Shown here: positions 19,360 through 46,469 of the stretch, piece after piece
Numbering within the stretch: position 1 is the stretch's first letter
Layout of the letters: each line of letters starts with the position of its first letter
Assembly: GCF_037031225.1 (NCBI RefSeq)
Contig: NZ_JAYEZN010000001.1
Coordinates: 2,356,001-2,420,000, forward strand
Length of the DNA: 64,000 nt
From: Halorientalis sp. LT38
GTDB lineage: Archaea; Halobacteriota; Halobacteria; Halobacteriales; Haloarculaceae
Direction: 5' to 3'
Position numbers and translations under genes: made by a program
The notes under the pieces: generated by a model
Seen by the model: only the letters and a program-made list of their open reading frames with translations
Databases searched by the model: none
Told to the model about the DNA's origin: nothing

Positions 19360-19848
19360 CTACAGCGCCTCGAGGGAGTCGTGGAGGAAGAGTCCCAGCG
19401 CGAGGTGGTGGTACATCGCCCCTTCGATCTGCGATCGCGCCGCGGACTCGTCTGCGACGGAGTACTCTTTGGTTCGGACCAGCTCGTGCATCGACAGCAC
19501 GTCGTCGTCTTCGATGTCGTGGAGACGGGGGTAGACCGTCCCCGGACTGAGCTGCGCGTCGAACAGCCGCGACAGGTCGTCGATCAGCGCCTTGCCGTGG
19601 GTGCCGTCCCGCAGCGCGATCAGTGCGATGAGGATCTCGTCCAGATTCTGCTTGACGATCTCGTCGTCGAAACCGAACGACTCGTCGACGGCCAGTCGCT
19701 CCATGACCGAAGACAACACCTGCTCGGGGTCGCCCTCCTGGCCAGTGCCTGGCGCGTCTGGGGACGCGGCCTCCAGTTCGTCACCGGCCGAGAGTTCTTG
19801 TATCAGCGTATTCACCAGCGGACTCGTGCTCACGTTATCTCCGGACAT
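19360..19848 (-). CDS. PadR-family winged-helix regulator
   Basis: 162 aa. After an unstructured acidic tail of about 65 residues comes the PadR winged helix: LDEILIALIALRDGTHGKALIDD, then LFDAQLSPGTVYPRLHDIEDDDVL, then a wing EYSVADESA. The LSPGTVYPRL recognition helix is diagnostic. A short C-terminal helix (YHHLALGLFLHD) probably dimerises. The region between this gene and the divergent winged-helix gene contains two palindromes and TATA-like stretches (tatataat near 19895), so autoregulation or cross-regulation is plausible. Confidence 0.85.
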   Translation of the reverse strand: MSGDNVSTSPLVNTLIQELSAGDELEAASPDAPGTGQEGDPEQVLSSVMERLAVDESFGFDDEIVKQNLDEILIALIALRDGTHGKALIDDLSRLFDAQLSPGTVYPRLHDIEDDDVLSMHELVRTKEYSVADESAARSQIEGAMYHHLALGLFLHDSLEAL

Positions 19849-19964: not shown

Positions 19965-20017
19965 CAACCCCCGGCCGGGATGGACCAACCGCCCGCCGGG
20001 GCGGTTTTCTCAGCGGT

Positions 20018-20042
20018 GATATTCCCCGCAATATCTTTTTAC
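20018..20042 (+). promoter_or_regulatory. Palindrome GATATT-N6-AATATC upstream of the winged-helix gene
   Basis: A perfect 6-bp inverted repeat (20018-20023 with 20030-20035) abuts a T-rich element centred about 27 bp before the GTG start at 20066, where the TATA box of a leaderless transcript would be. It is probably an operator for the gene's own product. Confidence 0.5.
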
Positions 20043-20065: not shown

Positions 20066-20419
20066 GTGGCAGAGGAACGTAGTATCGAGGAGGTTCTCGA
20101 CACCATCGGGGACGAGAACGCGCGCGAGATTCTGGCCGCCATCAGCATCGAGCCCCGCTCGGCCAAGGAACTGGCCGAGGAGTGTGATCTGTCGCTGCCG
20201 ACGGTCTACCGCCGCATCGAGATCCTGGAGGAACACGACCTCGTGAAGGATCGGACGCTGGTCGCCGACGACGGCAACCACTACAAGATCTACGAGTCCA
20301 ACTTCGACAGTACGGTGATCTCGCTGGAGGAGGAAGGCGAGTACCGGGTGCGCATCTACCGGGAGGAGAACCTCCCCGATCGATTCAGCCAGCTCTGGGA
20401 CGAACTCAACCCCGAGTAG
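20066..20419 (+). CDS. ArsR-like winged-helix transcription regulator (module A)
   Basis: 117 aa from a GTG start. The HTH reads DENAREILAAISIEPRSAKELAEECDLSLPTVYRRIEILEE in sequence order (two helices and a YRR recognition helix at about 42-55), followed by a wing and the strand EEEGEYRVRIYREE. It is clearly paralogous to the gene at 41040, sharing I/L-P-x-xxYRRI-x-ELxEHDL and a wing of the same length. It has no cysteines for metal sensing. About 100 bp downstream is a three-helix membrane protein, as also at the paralogous locus, so regulator and membrane protein probably act together. Confidence 0.85.
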   Translation: MAEERSIEEVLDTIGDENAREILAAISIEPRSAKELAEECDLSLPTVYRRIEILEEHDLVKDRTLVADDGNHYKIYESNFDSTVISLEEEGEYRVRIYREENLPDRFSQLWDELNPE

Positions 20420-20517
20420 GGAGTCGCTACCGGCTCCTGGGCGATCGGTTCGGGCACGGCTGCCCGGGGGCGATCGTCCGACGTACCTTTATGTTGGGTG
20501 GGTGAGCAGTGGCCCCC

Positions 20518-20820
20518 ATGGTCGAGACGGTGGCGATCGCGCGCGGGATCCTCGTCCTCCTGCGTCTCGTCACGTTCGCGCTGACGCTCGGCATCACGCT
20601 GATCAGCTTCCAGGCCTACCGGAAGAAACAGTCGGAGAAACTCCAGTCGGCCTTCATCGGCTTCGCCTTCATCAGCATGGGCGTCGCCGTCACGAACGTC
20701 ATCACCCAGCTGGGTGCCGGCGGGGACCCCTCCTCGCTCACCAATATCTTCCTTCAGATGACCGAGACGATCCCGTTTATCATCGGCTTCGCCATGCTGT
20801 ACGTCTCGCTGTACCGCTGA
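20518..20820 (+). CDS. Three-helix membrane protein, DUF7521-like (module A)
   Basis: 100 aa with three hydrophobic helices (about 7-29, 42-65, 78-97) joined by AYRKKQSEKLQ, a basic loop, and a QLGAGGDPS loop. TATA ctttatgt is centred 28 bp before ATG 20518, which favours this over a GTG three codons upstream. The same architecture (short periplasmic N terminus, AY/R-x-x-loop, final YVSLY/YSLVTY end) is seen in the protein at 41520. A small membrane sensor partner for the regulator is a reasonable inference. Confidence 0.78.
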   Translation: MVETVAIARGILVLLRLVTFALTLGITLISFQAYRKKQSEKLQSAFIGFAFISMGVAVTNVITQLGAGGDPSSLTNIFLQMTETIPFIIGFAMLYVSLYR

Positions 20821-20904
20821 GGGCTCACTGGCGGAAAATTCGCCGCGGACCTGTTCGGATCGAAGCCACGTTGCTTATGGGTGAGTAGCTCCATTAGTGG
20901 TCCA

Positions 20905-22746
20905 ATGACCGACACGACGCCCGAAGTGGTCCGCCTGTTCGGCGGTCCGGGCAGCGGCAAGACGACGGCCCTGCTGGACCGGGTCGAACAGTTACAGGAC
21001 GAGGGGGCGGACGTCAGGGACATTCTGGTCGTCTCCTACACGCGCGCTGCGGCGGCGGAGATCCGCGAGCGGCTGGCCGAACGCCTCGACATGACCCCGC
21101 GAGCGCTCCGCGGGAACGTCAGCACGATGCACGCGAAAGCGTACGAACTGCTGAACCTCTCCCGTGGGGACGTGGTCGGCGAGTCCGACAAGGAGGAGTT
21201 CTGCGAGGAGTACGGCATCGAGTACGAGGACGAGAACAAGGGTGCCCGTCGCCGGAGCGCCCGCTCGACGACCATCGGCAACAAGGTCATCGCGACCAGC
21301 CAGTGGCTCCAGCGGACCCGCCGGGACGTCTCGGACTGGTACGACGTCCCCTTCAAGTGGAACGTCGAGAAGGTGCGCCTGCCGCCCGAGGAGGACCCCA
21401 ACAGCCAGACCGGCAACAAGTACACGCCGACCTGGCCCTCCGACGACGACCGGATCGACGTGCCCGAGGCCATCCGCGCCTGGCGCGGCTACAAGGGCGA
21501 ACACGGCCTCGTCGGCTTCGCCGACATGCTCGAACGCGTCAAGCAGCGCTCGCTGTTGCCCAGCGTCGACTACCTGGTGATCGACGAGTTTCAGGACATC
21601 ACGACGCTGCAGTACGACGTCTACGAGGAGTGGAAACCCCACATGAAGCGGGTCCTGATCGCGGGCGACGACGACCAGGTCGTCTACGCCTGGCAGGGCG
21701 CCGACCCCGACCTGCTGCTCGACGAGGTCGTGACCGAGGACAACGTCCTCCCCAACTCCTACCGCCTGCCCTCCCAGATCCTCAACGTCGTCAACCGGGA
21801 GATCAGCCACATCGAGAAGCGCCAGGAGAAAGACCTCGAACCCCGGAAGGAAGGGGGTCGCGTCGAGGCCGTCTCCAGCCCGTCGATGCTGGACCTGGTC
21901 CGTAACGTCAACGCCACCGTCGAGGCCGAAGGGGACGAGACCGTCATGCTGCTGTTCCGGGCGCGCTACCAGATGTTCCAGTTCATGGACGAGTTCATCG
22001 GCGAAGGGATCCCCTTCCAGTGTCTCACCGACCAGCGGATGTGGACCGACCGGCTGACCCAGTACGTCCGCGCCGTCGAGGCGCTGGCCGAGGACGACCC
22101 CGTCACCGCGCTGCAGGCCCGGCGACTGGCCGACATGCTCGCCGATTCCGCGTTCGGCACCGGCGAGCGCGACGAGCTGTTCGACGCCATCGACGAGCGC
22201 CAGGAGGACGCCGACACCGACGACCTCGCCGAGATCATGGTCGAGCCGGACTTCGTCCGCGAGTACGCGCCGTTCATGCCCGACCCCCGGTCGGCCGCCG
22301 ACATGCTCCGGAAGGTGACCAACTTCCAGGAGCGCTCCGTGGACGCCTACTTCGCCGGCGACTACCAGGGGATGGCCACCGACGCCGTCCGCCTCGGCAC
22401 CATCCACTCCGCGAAGGGTCGCGAGGCCGACCACGTCTTCGTCGCCACCGACCTCACCGAGAAGGTCGTCGAGCAGATGGCCGCGACCGTCGAACAGGAG
22501 GGTCGCGACGTGAAGGGCGTCGAGGAGTTCACCAAACACACCGATCCGGTGCCGACGCTGACCGACAACGAGCGCCGTGTCTTCTACGTCGGGATGTCCC
22601 GTGCGCGCGAGCGCCTCGTGCTCATGGAGAACCTCGTCGACGGCGCGCCGACGCTGCCCATCGACGTGCTGCTGGAGAACGAACCCTCCGAGAAGAGCGT
22701 CGAGCAACTGCTGGACGAGGCGAAAAACGCCGTCGCCGTCCAGTAA
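20905..22746 (+). CDS. UvrD/Rep-type superfamily 1A DNA helicase
   Basis: 613 aa. Motif I is GGPGSGKTT (about 13-21), motif Ia is VVSYTRAAAAEI (about 43-54), motif II is VIDEFQD (about 223-229), motif III is AGDDDQVVYAWQGAD (about 246), motif IV resembles LNSYRLPSQIL, motif V is IHSAKGREADHVF (about 500), and motif VI is FYVGMSRARERL (about 563). The protein is shorter than full UvrD/PcrA. The TATA gcttatgg 28 bp upstream supports ATG 20905. It is likely involved in DNA repair or replication restart. Confidence 0.92.
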   Translation: MTDTTPEVVRLFGGPGSGKTTALLDRVEQLQDEGADVRDILVVSYTRAAAAEIRERLAERLDMTPRALRGNVSTMHAKAYELLNLSRGDVVGESDKEEFCEEYGIEYEDENKGARRRSARSTTIGNKVIATSQWLQRTRRDVSDWYDVPFKWNVEKVRLPPEEDPNSQTGNKYTPTWPSDDDRIDVPEAIRAWRGYKGEHGLVGFADMLERVKQRSLLPSVDYLVIDEFQDITTLQYDVYEEWKPHMKRVLIAGDDDQVVYAWQGADPDLLLDEVVTEDNVLPNSYRLPSQILNVVNREISHIEKRQEKDLEPRKEGGRVEAVSSPSMLDLVRNVNATVEAEGDETVMLLFRARYQMFQFMDEFIGEGIPFQCLTDQRMWTDRLTQYVRAVEALAEDDPVTALQARRLADMLADSAFGTGERDELFDAIDERQEDADTDDLAEIMVEPDFVREYAPFMPDPRSAADMLRKVTNFQERSVDAYFAGDYQGMATDAVRLGTIHSAKGREADHVFVATDLTEKVVEQMAATVEQEGRDVKGVEEFTKHTDPVPTLTDNERRVFYVGMSRARERLVLMENLVDGAPTLPIDVLLENEPSEKSVEQLLDEAKNAVAVQ

Positions 22747-39310: not shown

Positions 39311-39561
39311 CACGCCACCCTGTCCAGGTGTGACGGCCGGCAGCGACAGCCGGTCGCGTCGCCGCCGGTTCGCGCTGGGTGCGTTCGACGATCCGTCCGC
39401 CGCGGGCGTTCCGGCATCCGTGAGTTCTGTTGCGGGCCTAGCCGCGAGCCGCCAATAAAGACACCGCCCCCGTAATCAAATGTGATAGCCCAGGGGGCAA
39501 TCTTAAGGCCGATTCGGCGCGCAGTTACGATCGAGACCACCGCAGAAGGTCGACCGAACCC
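39311..39561. promoter_or_regulatory. Divergent cheB/cheW promoter region
   Basis: On the minus strand a TATA-like element (ttattgg, about 39451-39457) serves cheB, and on the plus strand cttaagg near 39502 serves cheW. Between them is an ATCA-N4-TGAT inverted repeat (39475-39486). I see no longer palindrome; the repeat may bind a shared regulator, but four-base arms are weak evidence. Confidence 0.35.
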
Positions 39562-40014
39562 ATGTCACAGGCGACACCGACGGACGCGGCCGAGGCGACC
39601 GACCAGGTATTGGAATTCGAACTCGGCACCGAAACCTACTGCGTCGACATCGACTACGTCACGGAGATCGTCGACGTGGGGAAGCTAACGGGGCTGCCAA
39701 ACGCCCCGGACTACGTCGAGGGCGTGATGGATCTCCGCGGGCGCACGACGGCGATCGTCGACCCGAAGGCCATCTTCGACGTCGACGGTGCCGACGTCGA
39801 CGTCAGACGGATCGTCGTGTTCGACCCGGCGATCATCGGCGACCGGAAGGCAGCCGGGTGGCTCGTCGACGAGGTGCGCCAGGTCGTGAAACTCGACCCC
39901 GAGACCGTCGAAAGCGCACCCGACAGCGGCCGGGAGGCGGTTCGCGGCGTGATCAAACACGACGACGAGGACGGGTTCGTGATCTGGGTGGACCCCCAGG
40001 CCGTCCACAAGTGA
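39562..40014 (+). CDS. cheW: Chemotaxis coupling protein CheW
   Basis: 150 aa, an SH3-like double beta barrel. Typical blocks are VLEFELGTETYCVDIDYVTEI (about 16-36), LPNAPDYVEGVMDLRGRTTAIVDPK (about 48-72), and GWLVDEVRQVVKL (about 96). It bridges transducers and CheA. It is the first gene of the plus-strand half of the locus, divergent from cheB, and is followed about 135 bp later by the KaiC-like ATPase. Confidence 0.94.
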   Translation: MSQATPTDAAEATDQVLEFELGTETYCVDIDYVTEIVDVGKLTGLPNAPDYVEGVMDLRGRTTAIVDPKAIFDVDGADVDVRRIVVFDPAIIGDRKAAGWLVDEVRQVVKLDPETVESAPDSGREAVRGVIKHDDEDGFVIWVDPQAVHK

Positions 40015-40150: not shown

Positions 40151-40876
40151 ATGATCGAGCTAACGAAGACGGGGATCGACGGACTGGATCAGATCCTCAA
40201 CGGTGGGATCGTCACGAACTCGACGACGCTGGTCAGCGGGAATCCGGGGGCCGGCAAGAGCATTCTGGGCCTGCAGTACGTCTACAACGGCGTCAAAATG
40301 TTCGACGAGAAGGGCATCTACCTCTCCTTCGAGGAGAACGAACAGGACATCCGCGAGGCCGCCGAATCGATCGGTTTCGACGACTGGCAGGCGTTCGTCG
40401 ACAGCGGCGACATCAAGGTGTACGACAAGCAGGTCCTGCTCCGGGAGAACGACTTCACCTCCTCGCTGGACCTGTTGCTCGACGACATCCAGGGCGAGGA
40501 CTACCAGCGACTGGTCCTCGACTCGCTGACGATGTTCCAGCTGTTCTTCGAGAACGAACAGGAGAAACGTACCTACCTGCTGAAGTTCACCGACATCCTC
40601 CGGCAGAACGAACTGACGACCCTGATGACCAACGAACAGGGGGCGGTGTTCCCGGACACGGACATCGGTCTGGAGAACTACCTCACCGACGGGAACATCT
40701 ACCTGATCCAGACGCCGACCGAGTCGGGCGTCAACCGCTACGTCTGGGTCGCGAAGATGCGCAAGCAGAACATCGAGACCGACATCTTCCCGATGGAGAT
40801 CGAACACGGCGGCATCACGGTTCACGAGAACGCCAGCGCGTTCTCGATGATGAGCGAAGACGATTCACCGATTTGA
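40151..40876 (+). CDS. KaiC-like RecA-fold ATPase
   Basis: 241 aa, a single KaiC/RadA-type domain. Walker A is SGNPGAGKSILG (about 29-40) and Walker B is RLVLDSLT (about 125), with catalytic Glu-Glu in SFEENEQDI (about 61). It belongs to the archaeal RAD55-like family that often accompanies signal transduction genes. Placement between cheW and a regulator suggests a taxis or motility role, though not proven; ArlH at 49508 is a related fold. Its promoter has a ctttttta stretch near 40105. No second KaiC domain is present. Confidence 0.8.
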   Translation: MIELTKTGIDGLDQILNGGIVTNSTTLVSGNPGAGKSILGLQYVYNGVKMFDEKGIYLSFEENEQDIREAAESIGFDDWQAFVDSGDIKVYDKQVLLRENDFTSSLDLLLDDIQGEDYQRLVLDSLTMFQLFFENEQEKRTYLLKFTDILRQNELTTLMTNEQGAVFPDTDIGLENYLTDGNIYLIQTPTESGVNRYVWVAKMRKQNIETDIFPMEIEHGGITVHENASAFSMMSEDDSPI

Positions 40877-41039: not shown

Positions 41040-41375
41040 ATGCCACCTGCCGAGGTTCTACGAACGCTTGGAAACAAGTATAGCGCGGAGATCCTGGAGG
41101 CCACCGACGAGCCCCAGTCGGCACAGGGCTTGAGCGAGGAACTCGACATCCCGATCGCGACCTGCTACCGACGGATCGACGAGCTGACGGAGCACGACCT
41201 GCTCGAACTCCACGACAACATCCTCTCCGACGACCGGCGGCGGATCAAGGTCTACCGCCGCAACGTCGACGAGATCACCGTCGACTTCTCGGGAGAGCTG
41301 TCGGTCAGCATCGAGGAGCGCTCGGAGGTCACCAACAAACTCGACGAAGCCTGGCGGACGCTTTCGGAGAGCTGA
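41040..41375 (+). CDS. ArsR-like winged-helix transcription regulator (module B)
   Basis: 111 aa, MPPAEVLRTLGNKYSAEILEATDEP as the first two helices, then SEELDIPIATCYRRIDELTEHDLL containing the recognition helix, then a wing (DDRRRIKVYRR) and a beta-strand tail. It is paralogous to the product of 20066 (same helix lengths, same xYRRIxxLxEHDL core). It has no obvious metal ligands; the single Cys is in the recognition helix. It is placed inside the taxis/archaellum locus before a three-helix membrane protein, so a motility-control role is suggested. Confidence 0.85.
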   Translation: MPPAEVLRTLGNKYSAEILEATDEPQSAQGLSEELDIPIATCYRRIDELTEHDLLELHDNILSDDRRRIKVYRRNVDEITVDFSGELSVSIEERSEVTNKLDEAWRTLSES

Positions 41376-41519
41376 TTTCTGCACGCGAGTTTCGAGCGGG
41401 TGCCGAATCCGGTGCCCTCAGGCGGTCTCGGCGGGCTGTAATGGGGAGTTATCAACGGAGATATTTTCGAGCGTGGATTTAAGGGGGTGGTTCCGATAGT
41501 TGCGCGTAGAGTTATCGTG

Positions 41520-41798
41520 ATGACCGTAGAAATCCTCTATGCCGCCTCCACCCTGGTCTTCGTCGTGGCCGGGCTGACCATGGTCGGCATGGCCATCCGC
41601 GCGTACGTACAAACCTCCCGACAGGCGATGTTGCACCTCTCGCTGGGCTTTTCCCTGGCCGTCGCCGGCGCCGCCGCGACGATGATCAGCGCGTTCATCA
41701 ACGACTTCGAGGGGACCCGGTGGCTCCTGCTCGTCAACAGCGGGCTCACCACCTTCGGGTACCTGTTCGTGATGTACAGTCTCGTCACCTACGAGTGA
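41520..41798 (+). CDS. Three-helix membrane protein, DUF7521-like (module B)
   Basis: 92 aa, helices at about 3-25, 36-58 and 66-88, with loop AYVQTSRQAM and a final YLFVMYSLVTYE. It matches the product of 20518 in length, topology and end motif. The ATG at 41520 follows a TATA-like gatttaagg by about 40 bp. It probably works with the winged-helix protein encoded 145 bp upstream. Confidence 0.78.
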   Translation: MTVEILYAASTLVFVVAGLTMVGMAIRAYVQTSRQAMLHLSLGFSLAVAGAAATMISAFINDFEGTRWLLLVNSGLTTFGYLFVMYSLVTYE

Positions 41799-41960
41799 CG
41801 TCGGCCGAGCCGCTGAAACCGCCCGAAATCGGGCCGTTATCATCGCCGAAATCTACACTGTTTCTCCGTTATCGAATCCTATTTTCGGAAACCACCGTTT
41901 CAAATCCTTGTAATAGCCACCTACGCAGCGGTTTTCAGATGAGATAATTGGCAGGTCAGG

Positions 41961-42037: not shown

Positions 42038-42736
42038 ATGTTCGAGACATTCAAAGCAGACGAAGACCGGGGTCAGGTCGGTATCGGGACCCTCATCGTG
42101 TTCATCGCGATGGTTCTCGTCGCGGCGATCGCGGCGGGCGTCCTGATCAACACGGCCGGCTTCCTGCAGAGTCAGTCAGAAGAGACCGGTGAACAGAGCA
42201 GTCAACAGGTGACCAACAGGCTGCAGATCCAGACGAGCTCCGGGCTGGTGACCTCCGGAGACGGCAGCAACCGAATCGGTGCGATCGAGATGATCGCCAC
42301 CAAGGCCCCCGGTGCCGAGGACATCGACCTCGAGGGTATTTCCATCCAGTGGGTCGACAACTCCGGGACTTACGACATCGTCCACGACAACGTCCTCGAC
42401 AACCAGGACGGGTCGTTCGACCACACGTCGGTGAAGGACGAGGACGGCTCGCTGAGCCCGTCCGGCGGCGCAGCGCCCGTCGTCAATAGCCCCGACGATC
42501 GCGCACGCCTGGTGTTCGACCTGGGTAACGCCGACGACGGAACTGGCGATGCTGGCGACAACTCGCTGAACGAGTTCTTCGACGAGAGCCCCGACGGCGA
42601 GCACACCTTCCGGAACCAGGGCCTCGCCGAGAGCGAGACCGCGACGATCCGCATTACCACCTCGTCCGGTGCCACGTCGACGGTCCGCATCCAGGTCCCG
42701 TCGTCGCTCAGTGGCAAGTCCGCGGCCAACCTGTAA
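42038..42736 (+). CDS. arlA: Archaellin (archaellum filament protein)
   Basis: 232 aa. The class III signal is [12 protein letters not shown], with the prepilin-peptidase cut expected before [15 protein letters not shown]. The hydrophobic helix QVGIG..INTAG (about 13-40) forms the filament core. The remaining 190 residues are an acidic, Ser/Thr/Asp-rich outer domain. A single archaellin gene is present here, unlike Halobacterium with several. I find no N-x-S/T sequon anywhere in the protein, unusual for a haloarchaeal filament. It has its own promoter. Confidence 0.94.
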
Positions 42737-42825
42737 CCGAGCGCACTTTCCTTTTTCTTCGACACGCGACCGACCGGGTAGTGACGACCAACGATTTATA
42801 TCGGTTCGCCACAGAGTCCCACACC

Positions 42826-43482
42826 ATGGCGGGTCCAGACGAGGAAGCGACCGGCGGCGAGCCCGAGGAGGGACCGGTCCTCTCGCCCGAGGAGCTCGAC
42901 ATCGCCGACGACGAACACGTCAGGGAACTCGAGGACGGGCGCTACGTGGTCTCTTCGTCGGAACCCATCGCCGACACGGGGTCCGAGCCGGCCGGGCAGA
43001 TCGAGGGCGGCACGGCCGACGACGATACCACGCCCGAACTCGACGGGGAGACCGAATCGACGAGCGCACCGGCTCCCCCAGAGCCGGAGCCGGCGGCCGA
43101 TGCCGACCCCGAACCGGACCCGGAGCCCGAACTCACAGCCGAAACGGTCCACGAGTGGCTCAGCGAGGACCTGTCGGCCTCCGATTCCCGGTACGGGTTC
43201 GACATCACCGCGGCCTTCGACGGCGGCATCTCACAGCAGCGGATGGTCTCGAACGACGTCGTCACCATCTTCGAGAGCCTCGTGATGTGGTACGCCCAGC
43301 AGATCGACCGCAACACGCCCGTCGAGGAGGTGCTGGGCATCCTCCTGATGGAGGCCAACGCTCCGGTGAAGTACCCGCCGGAGGCGGTGGTTCGGGCAGT
43401 GGAGTCGACCGCCCTCTCGCCGGAGGACTCGATCGCCGACCTGCTCGAGGCCGTCCGGGAGAAGGAGGGAGTCCAGTTGTGA
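42826..43482 (+). CDS. DUF7500-type protein of the archaellum locus
   Basis: 218 aa. TATA tttata in cgatttatatcgg (42792-42804) is 27 bp before ATG 42826, so this start is preferred over a GTG 15 codons upstream. The N-terminal half is acidic and Pro/Glu-rich (PEPEPAADADPEP). The C-terminal half is a compact helical domain (about 120-218): ETVHEWLSEDLSASDSRYGFD, SNDVVTIFESLVMWYAQQID and NTPVEEVLGILLMEANAPV. The domain may bind a partner in the taxis/motor pathway. Function unproven. Confidence 0.7.
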   Translation: MAGPDEEATGGEPEEGPVLSPEELDIADDEHVRELEDGRYVVSSSEPIADTGSEPAGQIEGGTADDDTTPELDGETESTSAPAPPEPEPAADADPEPDPEPELTAETVHEWLSEDLSASDSRYGFDITAAFDGGISQQRMVSNDVVTIFESLVMWYAQQIDRNTPVEEVLGILLMEANAPVKYPPEAVVRAVESTALSPEDSIADLLEAVREKEGVQL

Positions 43483-43527
43483 GCCGAAGCGGTCCTTTAG
43501 GTGTCGGGCCCGCCCAGGACTGACCGC

Positions 43528-44019
43528 ATGGACCGAGTCCGGCGAACCCAGTGGGCCACCGTCGCCGTGATGCTGGCAGTGCTCGTCTTTTCGGGCCCGC
43601 TCGTGGGCGTCGTCGACCTCACGCCGGAGACCCGCGGCGCGGCCGCGCTCGGTGACGGGACGGCGAACGCCACCGTCGCGGGCGACCCTGGCGCCGACCT
43701 GGTGATCGACGAGGGCCGGTTCGGGACGAACGTCTCCTACCTCCGGATCCCGCCGGCGACCGTCGACCTGGCGGCCGTCGAGGGCCGATCCCGCCTCCTG
43801 TATCACGTCGCCGTCCCCGGGCTCGGCTTCGAGCGCTCGGTGACCCACACTGTCAGTGGCGACGACGAGCGAGTGACCCTGCGGATGGACCCGCGGGCCT
43901 TCCCGCGGGAACGGATCCGGAACGACAGCTACCGGGCGACGATCACGATCAGCGTCCAGAGCTTCGAGGCGACCCGCAGGATATATCGGGAGAACGCCTC
44001 CGTCCCGGTGCACCGATGA
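43528..44019 (+). CDS. Membrane-anchored or secreted hypothetical protein in the motility locus
   Basis: 163 aa. A basic N terminus (MDRVRRTQWATV) leads into one hydrophobic helix (about 9-28). The rest is a beta-rich domain with NAT, NVS, NDS and NAS sequons, therefore probably extracellular. It is placed 45 bp after the DUF7500 gene on the same strand and before cheY. No domain recognised; possibly part of the cell-envelope side of the archaellum. Confidence 0.68.
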   Translation: MDRVRRTQWATVAVMLAVLVFSGPLVGVVDLTPETRGAAALGDGTANATVAGDPGADLVIDEGRFGTNVSYLRIPPATVDLAAVEGRSRLLYHVAVPGLGFERSVTHTVSGDDERVTLRMDPRAFPRERIRNDSYRATITISVQSFEATRRIYRENASVPVHR

Positions 44020-44179
44020 GGGCGACCCACTCCAGAAATAATTGATAACTGGTTTTCACGAAAACTCTCTCCAAATCGGCTCTCGGGTGGTGGTCTCTCC
44101 CTCACCCACGCGGACCCTATCATTCACGATAATCTGGTGGAAGGGTTTATCTGGATATTCGCGGTACGAATCGGTAACA

Positions 44180-44539
44180 ATGTCAGAGGTACTGATCGCG
44201 GACGATTCGGAGTTCATGCGGAACCTGCTGCGCGAGATTCTGGAGGAGGACCATCAGATCGTCGGGGAGGTCGAGAACGGCGTCGAGGCGGTGGAGGTGT
44301 ACAAGGAGGAGCGGCCGGATCTGGTGATGATGGACATCGTCATGCCGATCCGGGACGGGATCGAGGCGACCGACGAGATCAAGAACGGCGACCCGGAGGC
44401 GACGGTGATCATGTGCACCAGCGTCGGCCAGGAGGAGAAGATGAAGGAGGCGGTCAAGGCCGGTGCGGACGGCTACATCACCAAGCCCTTCCAGAAGCCG
44501 AGCGTCATCGAGGCGATCGAGGACGCTGTCGGGGCGTAG
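44180..44539 (+). CDS. cheY: Chemotaxis response regulator CheY
   Basis: 119 aa receiver domain. The acidic pocket is IADDSEFM (about 7-9), the phospho-acceptor Asp is in MMDIVMP (about 53), the Thr switch is in MCTSVG (about 82), and the Lys is in ITKPFQ (about 103). It carries phosphate from CheA to the motor through CheF. TATA gtttat near 44146 sits about 29 bp before the start, so the transcript is nearly leaderless. cheC begins 3 bp after its stop. Confidence 0.95.
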   Translation: MSEVLIADDSEFMRNLLREILEEDHQIVGEVENGVEAVEVYKEERPDLVMMDIVMPIRDGIEATDEIKNGDPEATVIMCTSVGQEEKMKEAVKAGADGYITKPFQKPSVIEAIEDAVGA

Positions 44540-46263: not shown

Positions 46264-46469
46264 CCGCTGGATTACGGGCCGCGATCCGGCTGTTTCTACC
46301 AGTGATAACGACCCGTCCGACCGCGGTCGCGAACCGAGCTCGATCTGCGCCCACGAGAACGACGAATCCGCCGTACCTGCCGAAATCTCCAGTCGAAGCG
46401 TCTGACGAGTATCAGCCGTGATACTATTGCCGACAGGTTGAAGGTCGTAAGGTGTGAATACTGACAGTG

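Follow-up and report, generated by a model that had tools for sequence, protein, structure and literature searches.

A DUF7521 membrane protein beside the motility regulator CsmR and the recurrent pairing of its family with winged-helix regulators

What does a small membrane protein do beside a DNA-binding regulator? The question is raised by two gene pairs in the window, the whole 64,000-nt stretch of the Halorientalis sp. LT38 genome that was analysed. The initial annotation, made from the letters of the window, had read them as a duplicated module, identical in order and strand, with one copy inside a taxis/archaellum locus, and had proposed an unstudied unit built of an ArsR-like regulator and its membrane partner. 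Order and strand are borne out. So is the location, since a Pfam scan places copy 2 between CheW/KaiC-family genes and an archaellin. The features are as follows.

20066-20419, +: copy 1 winged-helix regulator, 117 aa, GTG start; HTH_20 51.8 bits (cut-off 27)
20518-20820, +: copy 1 DUF7521 three-helix membrane protein; ATG 20518, alternative GTG 20509; DUF7521 42.5 bits (cut-off 27)
39562..40014, +: CheW (PF01584)
40151..40876, +: KaiC-family ATPase (PF06745), CirA-like by position and similarity, kept beside csmR elsewhere
41040-41375, +: copy 2 winged-helix regulator, CsmR orthologue by sequence, 111 aa; HTH_20 44.4 bits (cut-off 27)
41520-41798, +: copy 2 DUF7521 three-helix membrane protein of the CsmR-linked type; alternative GTG 41487; 33.3 bits (cut-off 27)
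42038..42736, +: archaellin (PF01917)

Two branches of one family

Both pairs belong to named, uncharacterised families, HTH_20 (PF12840) for the regulators and DUF7521 (PF24365) for the membrane proteins; both membrane proteins score above the curated cut-off of this Pfam family, which has no assigned function. The regulators share 37% identity over 108 aa (E 2e-18). The membrane proteins are barely similar (24% over 37 aa, BLASTP E 0.044) and are linked by the DUF7521 family model only. The term ‘duplicated module’ is misleading: the genome holds seven DUF7521 matches, and the two window copies belong to different clades, both with orthologues elsewhere. A recent local duplication is ruled out by these matches and by well-supported separate clades with orthologues in other genera. 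In the tree of regulators, copy 1 forms a clade of nine rows (support 100/99) outside the CsmR clade. Thus, the window copies are two old branches of one family.

The ArsR-like label holds for copy 1 in so far as it passes HTH_5 modestly (ArsR-type; 27.1 bits, cut-off 22). It fails for copy 2, which stays below that cut-off, and neither regulator passes the ArsR/SmtB model NF033788 (cut-off 55 bits; copy 1 28.9 bits, copy 2 not listed). Membership in the Lrp/AsnC class is not indicated either. Copy 1 reaches 19.1 bits with HTH_AsnC-type (cut-off 27), and AsnC_trans_reg is absent among the 25 listed of its 26 matches; for copy 2, neither AsnC-type HTH nor AsnC_trans_reg is listed. An NCBIfam scan of the window pairs gave no family above its own cut-off.

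AlphaFold2 models of both membrane proteins contain three helices (copy 1, pLDDT 86 and pTM 0.67; copy 2, pLDDT 91 and pTM 0.77), and comparison of both with solved structures found no matching fold at E ≤ 0.001. Among 67 DUF7521 proteins, loop 1 between helices 1 and 2 has a mean of 3.27 K+R versus 0.43 in loop 2. This charge distribution points to a cytoplasmic loop 1. By the charge rule, the N-terminus would be outside, and both the basic RAYRR-type loop and the YSLY-type C-terminal end would face the cytoplasm.

The csmR locus and its motif

CsmR (HVO_1209), a regulator of motility and cell shape in Haloferax volcanii, was published in June 2026 (PMC13286277). It is a 13-kDa winged-helix protein encoded upstream of arlA1/arlA2 and near cirA, the gene of a KaiC-like regulator; its deletion abolishes motility and its binding motif is TATCA(N4)TGATA (PMC13286277). 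The CsmR transcript level is stable, and the route by which environmental signals reach CsmR is stated in the same paper to be unknown (PMC13286277).

By sequence, the copy 2 winged helix is the CsmR orthologue. It groups with Haloferax csmR in a clade that excludes every other paralogue (100/100, in a tree of few columns whose bootstrap is not fully settled), and the Haloferax proteins of four loci (L220, L223-L225) are 59% identical to it. These loci have the order csmR-arlA-arlA-cirA, as published for csmR-arlA1-arlA2-cirA (PMC13286277). Copy 2 also resembles the Haloferax protein in size, in its archaellin and CirA-like neighbours and in the motif at motility promoters of the window (PMC13286277). 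The published CsmR is classed as Lrp/AsnC by structure (PMC13286277), whereas copy 2 belongs by sequence to HTH_20. The description as an unstudied unit thus fails for the copy 2 regulator and apparently stands for its membrane partner; the available text of the CsmR paper names no such partner (PMC13286277). In open-licence literature, ‘HVO_1209’ is found in the CsmR paper only (PMC13286277), and no paper contains ‘DUF7521’ or ‘PF24365’. Hence CsmR is already known, and in this literature neither its membrane partner nor the wider regulator-DUF7521 pairing was found.

Conservation of the locus was followed in the best 80 of 259 csmR matches, a set outside which H. volcanii itself falls. Among these 80, the usual order in Haloarculaceae is cheW-cirA-csmR-DUF7521-archaellin. 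Halorientalis, Haloarcula and relatives have a DUF7521 gene with a CsmR site between csmR and archaellin, and the Haloferax csmR loci seen have no such gene. After 11 of the 80 loci with short flanks were dropped, 69 remained, each with ≥2.5 kb of sequence to either side. These carry DUF7521 and archaellin (43 loci), DUF7521 only (5), archaellin only (12) or neither (9). An adjacent DUF7521 gene is therefore present in 48/69 and absent from 21/69, with archaellins in 12 of those 21. A strict tie between DUF7521 and archaellins is ruled out by the loci that have one without the other. Among the best 80, csmR without adjacent DUF7521 is found in Haloferax, Halonotius and relatives, Halohasta and Halalkalirubrum; one genome (G022, locus L093) has a Haloferax-like csmR with the DUF7521 partner still present. 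Sixteen genomes with csmR but no adjacent partner all hold other DUF7521 genes (60 matches); among the 30 that were fetched, the CsmR-linked type does not occur. As several lineages keep csmR without the neighbour, the partner is not obligatory; it appears to be common but dispensable, and lost in some lineages. Two csmR loci without DUF7521 (L179 and L200) have archaellin-family matches elsewhere in their genomes, and some of these assemblies are fragmentary. At a further locus (L141 of G046), a csmR-like gene gives matches in two frames, one of them interrupted by a stop, and is apparently broken.

The Haloferax consensus TATCAN4TGATA was searched in the window, the genome and related loci, with the reversed motif or shuffles as control. 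In the 64-kb window, eight matches with ≤2 mismatches were found versus 2.18 in shuffles. Seven of them lie 5′ of the copy-1 regulator, cheW, the copy-2 DUF7521 gene, archaellin (two) and response-regulator gene 44180, and at 46410. At several window sites, a TATA-like stretch is seen by eye ∼12-16 nt beyond the motif. Sites and stretches of note are the following.

20008..20021, +: CsmR-like site TCTCAGCGGTGATA, 5′ of the copy-1 regulator, 1 mismatch to TATCAN4TGATA
∼27 nt 5′ of ATG 20518: TATA-like CCTTTATG of the copy 1 DUF7521 gene, by eye
39474..39487, +: CsmR-like site 5′ of cheW, 1 mismatch
41450..41463, +: CsmR-like site TATCAACGGAGATA, promoter region of the copy-2 DUF7521 gene, 1 mismatch
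∼12 nt beyond the site at 41450..41463: TATA-like GATTTAAGG, by eye
41933..41946, +: CsmR-like site 5′ of archaellin, 2 mismatches
44118..44131, +: CsmR-like site 5′ of a CheY-like single-domain response regulator (44180-44539), 1 mismatch
46410..46423, +: perfect CsmR motif TATCAGCCGTGATA

The archaellin is separated from response-regulator gene 44180 by the genes of a DUF7500 protein (42781-43482) and of a protein that matches no Pfam family (43501-44019). The whole LT38 genome has 35 sites with ≤1 mismatch versus seven for the reversed control, and five of the 35 are in the window.

In the relatives, the motif with ≤1 mismatch occurs in the 150 nt before the DUF7521 domain at 51/65 CsmR-linked loci (63 distinct sequences), with 1/65 for the reversed control, and at 0/75 DUF7521 genes paired with other regulators. 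No motif at ≤2 mismatches is present in 9/65 CsmR-linked DUF7521 promoters. In the csmR-DUF7521 gaps, 42/50 contain the motif (shuffle mean 0.10). With ≤1 mismatch it is also found 5′ of csmR (32/97; reversed control 1) and 5′ of the nearest archaellin (29/70; reversed control 1). In five loci (L203, L212, L213, L218 and L114), DUF7521 is transcribed divergently from csmR, towards the archaellins, and the motif is kept with 1, 0, 2, 1 and 1 mismatches, respectively. Its distance from the DUF7521 gene is near-fixed in most relatives. The loci being related, the counts are not independent events. Since the published CsmR motif is conserved in this promoter, CsmR probably controls its neighbouring DUF7521 gene, copy 2 included, and would bind this promoter in vivo.

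Pairing in haloarchaea and beyond

The initial annotation had suggested checking whether the two families keep together in other genomes or occur mostly apart. In the LT38 genome, six of the seven DUF7521 matches are immediately preceded by a regulator of this winged-helix family, one of these six loci with two DUF7521-like genes in tandem; the seventh (L001) is without such a regulator. DUF7521 is present in 55/58 relatives. Seventeen haloarchaeal genomes of 16 genera were chosen among them, and 80 DUF7521 clusters were fetched and scanned. A regulator stands directly upstream, on the same strand, in 66/80 clusters, where 0.043 are expected by chance, and is missing upstream in 14/80. A recount from the genome searches likewise gives 66/80. 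Seen from the regulators, 66/101 profile matches (E ≤ 1e-12) in the 17 genomes are paired with DUF7521. The families thus occur mostly together. All 66 paired regulators are within the 73 best-scoring matches and none in the last 28, for a profile built mostly from paired members. The distance from regulator stop to DUF7521 domain is 2-59 nt in 44/66 pairs, and no fused regulator-DUF7521 frame was found in the loci scanned. All tandem DUF7521 clusters (13/80) have the regulator upstream (13/13).

Among side observations, in the tandem clusters (L004:795-1752 and 12 others), where a single regulator precedes the DUF7521 genes, their products may act as a hetero-oligomer. Several of the DUF7521 genes without such a regulator in the fetched stretch are alike (L001, L086, L096, L104, L116, L126, L128, L130, L132 and L136).

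Coevolution of the two families was considered by distance correlation and set aside. The overall value of 0.74 (shuffle maximum 0.11) reflects shared descent only, as the signal vanishes among divergent comparisons (0.085 for the 70% most divergent; shuffle maximum 0.128).

Outside haloarchaea, the regulator changes. Among 147 genomes drawn from the phylum, 30 have DUF7521 matches, 25 in the same order and five outside it. In 6/7 non-haloarchaeal loci examined, DUF7521 comes directly after an Lrp/AsnC-like regulator, which it overlaps or closely trails. These six loci (L293-L296, L299 and L300) are from four of the outside genomes and from two more genomes in one of the same families. All six partner regulators resemble the Lrp/AsnC protein of L294. 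The four scanned have HTH_24/AsnC-type and AsnC_trans_reg domains above cut-offs; the AsnC ligand-binding domain sets them apart from the window regulators, with which they share a DUF7521 gene directly downstream. The fifth outside genome (G100) has a CsmR-linked-type DUF7521 without adjoining regulator. DUF7521 is thus accompanied by a DNA-binding protein also where the regulator class is another. Two minor points concern these loci. A third gene trails some Lrp/AsnC-DUF7521 loci, and that of L293 weakly resembles ATC_hydrolase/MetOD1, below cut-offs. In another locus of G100 (L305), a csmR-like gene, a transposase-like frame (by eye) and a partial DUF7521 ∼1 kb on are found.

What the membrane protein may do

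It is tempting to propose a functional unit in which a winged-helix regulator, CsmR at 41 kb, is combined with a dedicated DUF7521 protein that is under its control and acts back on it; a probability of about 0.5 is assigned to this reading. CsmR would bind its motif TATCAN4TGATA in the promoter of the DUF7521 gene as well as in those of archaellum and taxis genes, and the DUF7521 protein would thus be made under its control. The basic cytoplasmic face of this protein would then bind and sequester CsmR, or release it, in response to a membrane or surface cue, which would close a feedback loop and tune motility. Physical contact, the direction of effect, the cue and the action of the membrane protein on CsmR are steps that we infer. 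The conserved membrane protein, encoded next to csmR in Haloarculaceae and several further haloarchaeal groups and with a CsmR site in its promoter, is a candidate for feedback or input to CsmR; the sensor role that the initial annotation had in mind is plausible.

The main rival, given somewhat less credence, holds that the membrane protein is a mere target of the adjacent regulator, with a separate membrane job (e.g. at the archaellum base or in the envelope), and never acts back. The motif 5′ of its gene is what a target should have, and in the five divergent loci DUF7521 lies on the archaellin strand like any target. Furthermore, CsmR works in Haloferax (PMC13286277), where the csmR loci seen have no adjacent DUF7521. 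Control of a target alone leaves unexplained why DUF7521 neighbours are found with several lineages and two classes of regulator, and why the spacing is so close in two-thirds of the pairs (44/66). Against it also are four genomes (G074, G076, G077 and G078; loci L175, L188, L189 and L191) that keep csmR, a CirA-like gene and DUF7521, with no archaellin found genome-wide in these fragmentary assemblies. That adjacency is mere inheritance from ancestral neighbours, with no functional link, is very improbable. The distance correlation is gone among distant paralogues and many genomes examined are related, as inheritance would have it, but pairing survives in several paralogue clades and several haloarchaeal families, and through the switch to another regulator class outside them; the promoter motif of the DUF7521 gene also keeps its near-fixed distance.

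Known systems offer two comparisons. In Bacillus subtilis, SdpI, a membrane protein encoded next to the regulator SdpR, retains SdpR at the membrane (PMC1626106). The layout, in which the gene of a small winged-helix regulator precedes that of a polytopic membrane protein, and the proposed logic are alike, and where the spacing is close, a pair could form a single autoregulated operon. A true immunity/stress unit of this type, in which the membrane protein recognises a peptide from outside the cell or a damaged envelope, retains the regulator at the membrane and thereby induces its own operon, is nevertheless unlikely. The window pairs are unrelated in sequence to the SdpR and SdpI models: copy 1 has 26.6 bits with SdpR NF033789 (cut-off 100 bits), copy 2 has no SdpR match listed, and no SdpI-family match is listed for either membrane protein. 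No partner toxin gene was noticed, only three helices are predicted, and the target is a motility regulon. In Sulfolobus, ArnR/ArnR1 tie archaellum regulation to the membrane via a helix-turn-helix protein (PMC13286277). There, DNA-binding and membrane parts are in one protein, and the window pairs consist of two genes.

The proposed unit of regulator and dedicated DUF7521 partner can be extended, more tentatively, to a general role. DUF7521 might be a plug-in membrane receptor for archaeal winged-helix regulators, a three-helix scaffold serving at least two regulator classes, present several-fold per haloarchaeal genome, that would pass membrane or surface information directly to a dedicated transcription factor, with neither a kinase nor a domain for ligand binding. 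In the archaellum locus it might supply the missing input to CsmR. A haloarchaeal genome holds many such pairs, and archaea outside this group have them with a second class of regulator, so one result would help to explain a whole uncharacterised regulator family.

Finally, the CsmR-like site 5′ of the copy-1 regulator (20008-20021) would make copy 1 part of the CsmR regulon in this genus only. It is at a fixed position, with ≤1 mismatch, in 7/8 same-genus copy-1 loci, and copy-1 loci of other genera have another palindrome-like stretch instead (by eye). As the site is confined to one genus, no general claim is made for copy 1. The neighbours of the copy 1 pair are a divergent PadR-like gene (19360-19848, -) and a UvrD-family helicase gene (20881-22746, +).
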